Positions 18,479 through 19,806 of a DNA stretch of 29,996 nt are shown here, piece after piece. The stretch is from a virus. The translations under genes were made by a program, and so were the position numbers. Where the stretch lies: positions 1 through 29,996 of the IMG/VR virus record IMGVR_UViG_3300042367_000535; one strand, given 5' to 3'. The stretch's first letter is position 1. The number at the start of each line of letters is the position of its first letter. The notes beneath the pieces were generated by a model. The model did no database searches and was not told the DNA's origin. It worked only from the letters and a program-made list of their open reading frames with translations.

Positions 18479-18721
18479 TTAGACTGGCAACCTCGATGTT
18501 TTCGTCATGTAGTTGAGGTCCTCGGCGCTCTCTTGCAAGAATGCTTTGGCTTTGGTGCTGGTTTTGATCATTGCAGCAGCCGTCTCAATTTCAATGCCCT
18601 TAAGTCCTGCAACGTGGATGACTGCGTCCATGTAACCACATGAAGTGGTACGGCTGAACTGGTCAACCTCTTGCAAGAACTGAGTCGTATCGACCATTTT
18701 TTCAGGCTTAATCAATGACAT
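18479..18721 (-). CDS. 33: T4 gp33-like late transcription co-activator
   Basis: The small product (80 residues) occupies the gp33 position upstream of gp59 and gp32. It carries the central pattern SCGYMDAVIHVAGLKGIEIE followed by a helix and ends AEDLNYMTKTSRLPV, which resembles cyanophage gp33. In T4, gp33 connects RNA polymerase to the sliding clamp, and its C-terminal tail binds the clamp. Here the end is RLPV rather than an acidic hydrophobic tail, so clamp binding is less certain. ATG 18721 with AAGGA 9 nt upstream is chosen over TTG 18727. The TATAAATA-like boxes in the window fit a gp33-dependent late system. Confidence 0.75.
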   Translation of the reverse strand: MSLIKPEKMVDTTQFLQEVDQFSRTTSCGYMDAVIHVAGLKGIEIETAAAMIKTSTKAKAFLQESAEDLNYMTKTSRLPV

Positions 18722-18733
18722 ATACAAGTATCC

Positions 18734-19309
18734 TTAAGTGCGATAGAAGGCGTGACCTCCGATCGTAGTTGTGCGTTTGAACCTATTTGCCCAGCTAGGA
18801 CGAACCCTGAATGCATGGAAATAAGTCGCGCCGTGCGTATTGTCCGATGCATCTTGCCCGGTATATACACGCTCGGCTATTTCTTGTGCTCGGGCCCATA
18901 GAGGACCACGAGGTGGTGCGTATCCTTGCCTCACCCAAGAAAACTGGGATGGCTGATGGACCACACCGCAGATTGTGTTACGAAACTGCCCGTCGTGCAT
19001 GCGATTCATGGTAACGTGAGCAACAGCACGCATGCCGTCGACTCCCTCACCGCGAGCCTCATAGTAGATGTTTCGAGCTAGACAGTTGATTTCAGCGCTG
19101 TTGGCTGATCTTGTGTTGACTGGTTCCCTAGAAGCTTCAGCTTCCTCCCTCAATACCTGCTCATATGGGACCGGGACCGTCTGTTGACTCACCTGAGCAG
19201 GGGGTGAGATGATAAGTTCTTGCGAACTCTGTGGACTTGCTGAAAATCCAGCAAGTAGTAGAGACGCACAAATAACGCCTCCAAGTAGAGTGTTTGTATT
19301 TGACAACAC
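18734..19309 (-). CDS. SleB/CwlJ-type cell-wall hydrolase with export signal
   Basis: The 191-residue product has an N-terminal hydrophobic segment (LLGGVICASLLLAGFSAS, residues 8-25) that acts as a signal or anchor, a proline- and glutamate-rich linker, and a C-terminal Hydrolase_2 (SleB) domain of about 120 residues. The domain shows CLARNIYYEARGEGVDGMRA with the catalytic glutamate at about E84, VAHVTMNRM, QFSW and THGATYFHA. Such enzymes cut peptidoglycan, so this is a good endolysin or lysis candidate that could reach the periplasm by itself. AAAAGGAGG precedes the start. Either GTG 19309 or TTG 19306 may be used, the latter at better spacing. It is the gene following the tmRNA. Confidence 0.88.
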   Translation of the reverse strand: MLSNTNTLLGGVICASLLLAGFSASPQSSQELIISPPAQVSQQTVPVPYEQVLREEAEASREPVNTRSANSAEINCLARNIYYEARGEGVDGMRAVAHVTMNRMHDGQFRNTICGVVHQPSQFSWVRQGYAPPRGPLWARAQEIAERVYTGQDASDNTHGATYFHAFRVRPSWANRFKRTTTIGGHAFYRT

Positions 19310-19412: not shown

Positions 19413-19435
19413 ATCTTGCATGATCGGTGCAAGAT
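19413..19435 (-). terminator. 8-bp hairpin at the end of the tmRNA gene
   Basis: A perfect stem (ATCTTGCA and TGCAAGAT) with a 7-nt loop follows the tmRNA coding half, with no U-tract. It may end the transcript or mark the processing boundary of the coding RNA. The SleB-like gene lies just downstream, so read-through is possible. Confidence 0.5.
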
Positions 19436-19482
19436 TAGTGGGTCCGTTCTGTTGCTAGGAGGAACCCATTCCCCGAAGTAAC

Positions 19483-19527
19483 TTAGGCCGCTAGGGCGTA
19501 AGAAACCTCATTGTTGTCATTAGCTGC
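19483..19527 (-). other. tmRNA tag-peptide reading frame
   Basis: The frame GCA to TAA encodes AANDNNEVSYALAA followed by a stop. It opens with the AND that most proteobacterial tags start with and closes with ALAA, the degradation signal recognised by ClpXP and related proteases. GTC precedes the presumed resume codon GCA, as in known tmRNAs. If GCA is the resume codon, one extra alanine is encoded compared with usual tags. GCT at the next position would give the more usual spelling. The exact resume codon cannot be fixed from sequence. Confidence 0.85.
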
Positions 19528-19616
19528 GACATTTACAGTGTTTGCGCATTTGACCGGTGCTTCCATCCGGATTCTCCACACACTTTGCCTTCGGTAGTCG
19601 AAACTAGTTCGGCCCC

Positions 19617-19688
19617 ATCAAAAACAGATACTCTGGAATTCTACCAGACTTCTAGAATGTAGAGGGTCAACAACCCTATATCTGTTTT
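19617..19688 (-). other. Spacer joining the tmRNA halves, processed out
   Basis: 72 nt lie between the CCA end of the acceptor half and the 5' end of the coding half. Its ends form an 11-bp stem stacked on the acceptor stem. Inside, ATTCTA/TAGAAT and AGGGT/ACCCT arms form two further hairpins. In two-piece tmRNAs this loop is removed by RNases, leaving the mature 5' and 3' ends. Confidence 0.8.
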
Positions 19689-19774
19689 TGGTGGAGCCGT
19701 CGGGTACTGCCCCCGAGTGTTACCTAAACTAATGGCTTCATCGAATATCGTACAGCGATTTCTCACTGGTAGCT

Positions 19775-19806
19775 TATTTATACCTCGCCGGTATAATAAT
19801 GTACAT
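19775..19806 (-). promoter_or_regulatory. Promoter of tmRNA: early-type box overlapping a perfect TATAAATA
   Basis: -35-like ATGTAC at 19801-19806 and -10 TATAAA at 19777-19782 with an 18-nt spacer give the phage early architecture. The -10 is embedded in TATAAATA (19775-19782), the exact T4 late consensus. The tmRNA could therefore be made both early and late. The alternative -10 TATTATA at about 19791-19797 is too close to the -35. Confidence 0.7.

Follow-up and report, generated by a model that had tools for sequence, protein, structure and literature searches.

Permuted, two-piece tmRNAs carried by phages have been described before. Phage Melnitz (2022; MZ577097) was annotated with a two-piece ssrA by authors who proposed early expression of its tmRNA, and an ARAGORN survey recovered 53 two-piece phage tmRNA structures (PMC9004378); the Rfam tmRNA_permuted model derives from tmRNA database work listing 79 phage sequences (PMC11915505), a 2017 paper described the tmRNA of a sphingomonad phage (PMC5648845), and Bradyrhizobium phages also carry tmRNAs (PMC12656738). 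A first, sequence-only reading of the DNA analysed here had supposed that permuted tmRNAs were uncharacterised in phages, a supposition that the Melnitz annotation and the survey of two-piece structures correct. In the literature searched, where subscription papers were sparsely covered, we found no report of a late or composite early/late promoter for a tmRNA, of a general linkage to gp33, or of module swaps; because two-piece phage tmRNAs are published and these features were not found reported, we regard the regulation of the gene as the new part, the permuted phage tmRNA itself being already known.

The window, a 29,996-base virus record with the gene content of a T4-like myophage, holds a full-length permuted tmRNA on its minus strand at 19807-19437 according to Rfam covariance models. 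The match to RF04321 (tmRNA_permuted; 19746-19483) scored 84.4 bits against a gathering threshold of 47 (E 4.9e-15) and spanned model positions 1-213 of 213. RF01849 (alpha_tmRNA), the model by which the sequence-only reading had proposed to check its call, matched 19807-19437 with 82.7 bits against a cut-off of 50 (E 3.3e-21; model 1-355 of 355). With two models matching at full length, the permuted tmRNA claimed by that reading was recovered together with every element it had described, the acceptor half with T arm and CCA, the stem-forming spacer, the TTTCGAC motif and the tag frame all lying in the place indicated. ARAGORN, which had been proposed as a further check, detected no tmRNA at the window locus; it detects 32 of 56 Rfam-positive viral loci and misses 23 of the 55 others besides the window's, so its miss was dismissed as an argument against the tmRNA and not counted against the gene.

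In the gene, the acceptor half lies upstream of the coding half (all features that follow are on the minus strand). The precursor carries a 5′ leader hairpin (CAGUGA-GAAA-UCGCUG, 19753..19768) that aligns with the alpha_tmRNA 5′ hairpin and in which a G-C pair has become G-U in one relative. The acceptor half, that is, the 3′ tRNA-like half (19689..19735; RF04321), comprises the T arm (19716-19700) and the acceptor 3′ strand with CCA (19699-19689), and an intervening spacer of exactly 72 nt (19617..19688) separates it from the coding half (19436..19616; RF04321 and RF01849). The latter begins with the acceptor 5′ strand GGGGCCG (19616-19610) and contains the D-loop TTTCGAC (19603-19597), the tag reading frame GCA...TAA (19527-19483) and a distal region (19473-19436). 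The tag translates as AANDNNEVSYALAA followed by the stop, with both a resume codon and, at its end, an LAA degron. As had been claimed, the two halves form a 7-bp acceptor stem with a G·U pair: GGGGCCG/CGGCUCC-ACCA has its G·U at pair 3 (G3·U70) and the CCA is present. The spacer ends CAAAAACAGAUA and UAUCUGUUUUUG zip together next to the CCA, joining two predicted cut sites, and the 72 nt fold at -24.9 kcal/mol (z -4.8; matched by none of 200 shuffles).

The gene agrees with the alphaproteobacterial two-piece tmRNA (RF01849; Caulobacter model) in gene order, in its T loop, in having G3·U70 in the acceptor stem, in its intervening segment, and in a tag that carries ANDN close to the start and finishes in AA. 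The window gene differs from it in being phage-borne, in having a T4-late box in place of the host -10, and in having no close bacterial donor among the 119 loci compared, where short blastn with either tRNA-like allele or the tag returned generic T-arm and tag matches only. Judged by these sequence features, the gene is a complete and probably functional permuted ssrA of the alphaproteobacterial kind, its two-piece form likely being that of the phage's probable hosts.

Immediately 3′ of the tmRNA lies a hairpin, AUCUUGCA..UGCAAGAU (19413..19435, minus strand), which is the first of several ahead of the lysin gene and for which relative L210 has compensating changes in both arms, pairing being kept. 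The region 19440-19310 folds with a z of -3.6. Running from the end of the tmRNA towards the lysin gene, this row of hairpins (19435-19342) has no U run and may help to process or stabilise the lysin mRNA.

The gene is part of a phage genome, as the sequence-only reading had held. Genes of the window include ligase, endolysin, gp33, gp59, gp32, PhoH and polynucleotide kinase, with the DNA ligase among those that flank the tmRNA, and the tmRNA is followed on the minus strand by the endolysin as the next gene downstream (18734..19309; phrog_938, 9e-27), a gp33-like late promoter transcriptional regulator (18479..18727; phrog_254, 3e-9), gp59 (18475-17897; phrog_269, 3e-51) and gp32 (17794-16898; phrog_224, 2e-113), the nearest named gp32 being that of Sinorhizobium phages. 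A relative, the 198,633-base phage contig G001, is 99.5% identical to the window over the tmRNA region and carries homologues of gp18, gp19, gp22, gp23, gp55 and gp45; its gp55 has 58% identity over 139 aa to a Melnitz protein (Melnitz gp55 is the phrog_234 late sigma) and its gp45 42% identity over 218 aa. An integrase was looked for in G001 and Melnitz and found in neither, and SmpB was absent from G001 and from 8 phages of this kind. Because phage core genes flank the tmRNA, and the matching 198.6-kb contig has T4 genes and no integrase, contamination by host chromosome was ruled out and an attachment-site remnant is unlikely; the window is, by its gene content, a fragment of a T4-like myophage genome.

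The closest described counterpart is the Melnitz gene, likewise a permuted tmRNA in a T4-like genome; it too precedes gp33 and gp59 and has a TATAAATA box. The two differ in several respects: a glutamine riboswitch has been reported in the 3′ domain of the Melnitz tmRNA, whereas the window has no Rfam riboswitch match; the window has an endolysin between tmRNA and gp33; its -35 is of its own TTGTAC type rather than the TTGACA of Melnitz; and its phage belongs to a separate lineage, the one with a gp32 nearest, among named ones, to that of Sinorhizobium phages.

The phage-type promoter claimed by the sequence-only reading was found in sharper form. Upstream of the tmRNA stands the exact octamer TATAAATA (19775..19782, minus strand), a T4-type late promoter box that also stands where the -10 of a sigma70-like promoter would be and is identical in all five close relatives. 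In G001 it occurs 9 times on the plus strand and never on the minus strand (expected about 1.3 and 0.9), at sites before tail sheath gp18, tail tube gp19, scaffold gp22, major capsid gp23, tRNA arrays and the tmRNA. We take it as the T4 late promoter box of this phage because it is one-stranded and placed before late structural genes; the late-promoter machinery is also encoded, with gp33 in the window and gp55 and gp45 homologues in G001. A -35-like hexamer, ATGTAC (19801..19806, minus strand), lies 18 bp upstream of the box, with one mismatch to the phage's early -35 TTGTAC, and the tmRNA's is the sole one of the 9 late boxes of G001 with an early-like -35. Early promoters of the form TTGTAC-N16-18-TATNNT number 17 in G001, all on one strand. 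With one mismatch and 18-bp spacing the -35 is weak, so the early half of this phage's promoter is uncertain. Early-type promoters also stand in the window upstream of 4608, 5686, 8431, 10051 and 24246; their -35 reads TTGTAC or TGTGTAC, and a -10 resembling TATTAT follows some 17 bp later.

Across viruses, the same octamer recurs at tmRNAs and is frequently coupled to a better -35. The viral set was drawn by a T-arm pattern, and its frequencies apply among the matches listed rather than to all phages. Among these matches, 58 of 112 distinct viral tmRNAs have an exact TATAAATA within 110 nt upstream, nearly all at one distance, and the late box is missing from about half of the viral permuted tmRNAs; the corresponding figure for random viral stretches is 1.9%, and none of 118 bacterial tmRNAs has the exact octamer upstream. 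Where the box is in register (54 viral tmRNAs), a -35 TTGACA (≤1 mismatch) lies at 16-18 bp in 45 (2% when shuffled), and in 41 of those 45 the spacing was exactly 17 bp. Since the bacterial control is far richer in GC (61% vs 39% in the viral set), a control within the same contigs was preferred: exact TTGACA-N17-TA promoters use TATAAATA as their -10 in 34 of 41 cases at tmRNAs vs 2 of 221 elsewhere (Fisher 2e-33), the -10 of the others being TATAAT or further variants, and non-tmRNA TATAAATA boxes have a -35 in only 5 of 167. When redundancy was handled by clusters of similar upstream sequence, the 92 viral clusters (among the matches listed) divided into 31 composite, 11 late-only and 50 with neither, and composite or late boxes were found in 0 of 62 bacterial clusters. 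Melnitz itself has a perfect composite, TTGACA-N17-TATAAATA, at its tmRNA, and one other near-perfect example among its 25 late boxes. The phages phiCbK, RpoS-V10, RcXuper, XM05, Cp1R7A-A1, Phosso and Bajun resemble the window's phage in exceeding the RF04321 cut-off, but differ in that the 120 nt upstream contain no exact TATAAATA; the nearest form in Phosso is TGTAAATA, one mismatch from TATAAATA. We read the sigma70 -35 joined to TATAAATA at viral tmRNAs as a composite early/late promoter, an arrangement of sequence that suggests low early and high late tmRNA output.

The position of the gene is also shared. In the window, gp33 lies about 1 kb downstream of the tmRNA, beyond the endolysin; among the matches listed, T4 replication markers were found at 48 viral tmRNA loci, and in these gp33 comes after the tmRNA on the same strand, mostly within 2 kb; in Melnitz it also follows the tmRNA. 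Random placement in a genome of 150-200 kb would not give this linkage, and we read the position upstream of gp33, from gene order, as old and inherited. One of the named phages closest in gp32, Sinorhizobium phage phiM12, carries gp33-gp59-gp32 but gave no tmRNA match.

Base-pair covariation across homologues, to which the sequence-only reading had pointed as a check, was found in the T stem and the acceptor stem. T-stem pairs 1 and 2, whose bases the T-arm search pattern leaves free, are paired in 100% of 114 viral homologues (among the matches listed) and show all four Watson-Crick types; in 106 viral sequences, pairing at acceptor positions 5 and 6 reaches 98.6%, compared with 64% (max 70% in 1000) when strands are shuffled between sequences. 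The G·U pair of the viral set was imposed by the search patterns and, being constant for that reason, carries no weight as evidence there.

Close relatives offer a clearer natural test of selection on the fold, and their differences fall by module. Between the window and L217, the tRNA-like halves are 65% and 80% identical, vs 95% for the spacer, 100% for the tag, and 99-100% for the flanks, with promoter, leader, spacer, tag and 3′ flank together at 95-100%; acceptor pair 5 is exchanged from C-G to G-C with its partner matched, and the T-stem changes are matched too. One tRNA-like allele (A) occurs in the window and L221 and another (B) in L217, L210, L211 and L212, of which the last three combine allele B with a different tag, ANDNEATVAYALAA, and with different spacers of 71 nt or 160 nt that are unrelated to the window's, in flanks nearly unchanged. 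Both tag types retain ANDN...YALAA. Given this distribution, the gene has a mosaic build of three modules: to judge from the aligned sequences, tRNA-like domain, spacer and tag are exchanged among close relatives, and the two separated tRNA-like halves switch together. That one spacer can stand in for another between relatives lends indirect support to the predicted processing into two mature RNAs. As to tags more generally (loci L002-L121; L260-L378), 88 of 104 viral tags among the matches listed end in LAA vs 48 of 110 bacterial ones, with mean lengths of 13.5 aa (viral, among the matches listed) and 11.9 aa (bacterial), a bias that could stem from which hosts were sampled or from selection for rapid breakdown of tagged products.

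From gene, fold, tag, box and position, all read from the sequence, we infer expression and rescue, and consider it probable that this is a phage-owned ssrA of a T4-like myophage, transcribed weakly early and strongly late and used to rescue ribosomes. Under this model, host RNA polymerase would make a single precursor, weakly with host or early sigma via the -35 element and strongly at TATAAATA through the phage's late sigma (gp55) together with its co-activator (gp33) and its clamp (gp45). The folded spacer would be cut out by RNase P and CCA-end nucleases to leave two RNAs held by the acceptor stem, which AlaRS would charge with alanine through G3·U70. Host SmpB would be used, the phage being without its own; ribosomes stalled on broken messages would be released, and the added tag ending in LAA would send the product to ClpXP. 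The likely benefit would be that ribosomes are kept free in late, high-output translation while messages are cut. T4 leaves host SsrA intact in infection (PMC9697503), and why a phage should need its own copy is thus not obvious.

Transcription might instead be early only, by host sigma70 RNA polymerase, with the tmRNA tagging and recycling host proteins early and TATAAATA being merely a -10 box. A good -35 does lie 17 bp from the box in most late-box tmRNA promoters, and early expression was the reading of the Melnitz authors for their phage; yet the other TTGACA-N17 promoters of the same contigs turn to TATAAT or other hexamers and all but 2 of 221 avoid the octamer, G001 has that same octamer before gp18, gp19, gp22 and gp23, and the window's own -35 is poor, which makes early-only expression unlikely. 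A different role, that of a decoy or competitor altering host tagging (e.g. by occupying SmpB) rather than a rescuer, has a precedent in the tag-less tmRNA of phage DS6A, which inhibits endogenous tmRNA (PMC11915505), and counteraction of host tagging was suggested by the authors of the Lacusarx paper. The window's tag frame, however, is present and ends in a degron, LAA prevails among the viral tags listed (88 of 104), and the tags of near relatives differ yet keep ANDN...YALAA, so that we hold a decoy role to be quite improbable.

Finally, integration at ssrA is common, and the phage could have acquired a functionless host ssrA, whole or in part, by chance, through imprecise excision or at an attachment site; gene exchange with a temperate phage was raised by the Melnitz authors (PMC9004378). 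Against this, the gene is complete and its stems covary, the late box is absent in 117 bacterial homologues, no integrase was found in G001 or Melnitz, the location upstream of gp33 is repeated across diverse contigs, and both halves change in concert among near relatives. An attachment-site fragment was rejected on completeness and the lack of an integrase, and we regard chance acquisition as a whole as very improbable. Returning to a phage-owned ribosome-rescue gene, we lean towards a broader reading: T4-like phages that infect alphaproteobacteria, along with marine relatives, would have a lineage-conserved tmRNA fixed upstream of gp33, with a purpose-built composite promoter giving phage control of ribosome rescue early and late, and with modules swapped by recombination, possibly to fit hosts.

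Homologues, which the sequence-only reading had proposed to seek in phage genomes, proved numerous. RF04321 exceeded its cut-off in at least 67 virus contigs (17 of 50 ligase-relative contigs and 50 of 50 picked by T-arm pattern) and in 8 isolate phages, phiCbK among them. Phage tmRNA thereby ceases to be an oddity and looks like a component of many T4-like genomes with a set position and timing, which yields the testable hypothesis that late infection requires ribosome rescue. Phage tmRNAs also appear widely overlooked, given the ARAGORN detection rate and the records themselves: Melnitz and Bajun have a tmRNA annotation and most others do not, and over-cut-off permuted tmRNAs without annotation lie in JX100813.1 (103283-103601), MH015255.1 (9203-9506), OP186293.1 (3259-3561), PV416404.1 (149931-150218), MT188704.1 (58735-59021) and PV764938.1 (349596-350198). 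The phiCbK gene (71.4 bits) is among these. Its host, Caulobacter, is the organism in which two-piece tmRNA is chiefly studied as a model, and the pair offers a ready laboratory system for a phage two-piece tmRNA.

Two further observations concern other phages. At 603 bases, the tmRNA match of Phosso (L400, a Sinorhizobium phage; PV764938.1) is roughly double the normal length, which points to a spacer that is exceptionally long or has an insertion in it. G001 has 38 tRNA genes, in arrays at 91.5-98.0 kb and 103.5-115.8 kb (L383 11536-18026, L384 3511-15804), with exact late boxes 22 nt upstream of the second array and about 200 nt upstream of the first; one of these tRNAs has a CTA (amber) anticodon, yet TAG ends 26 of 137 ORFs of at least 150 aa.
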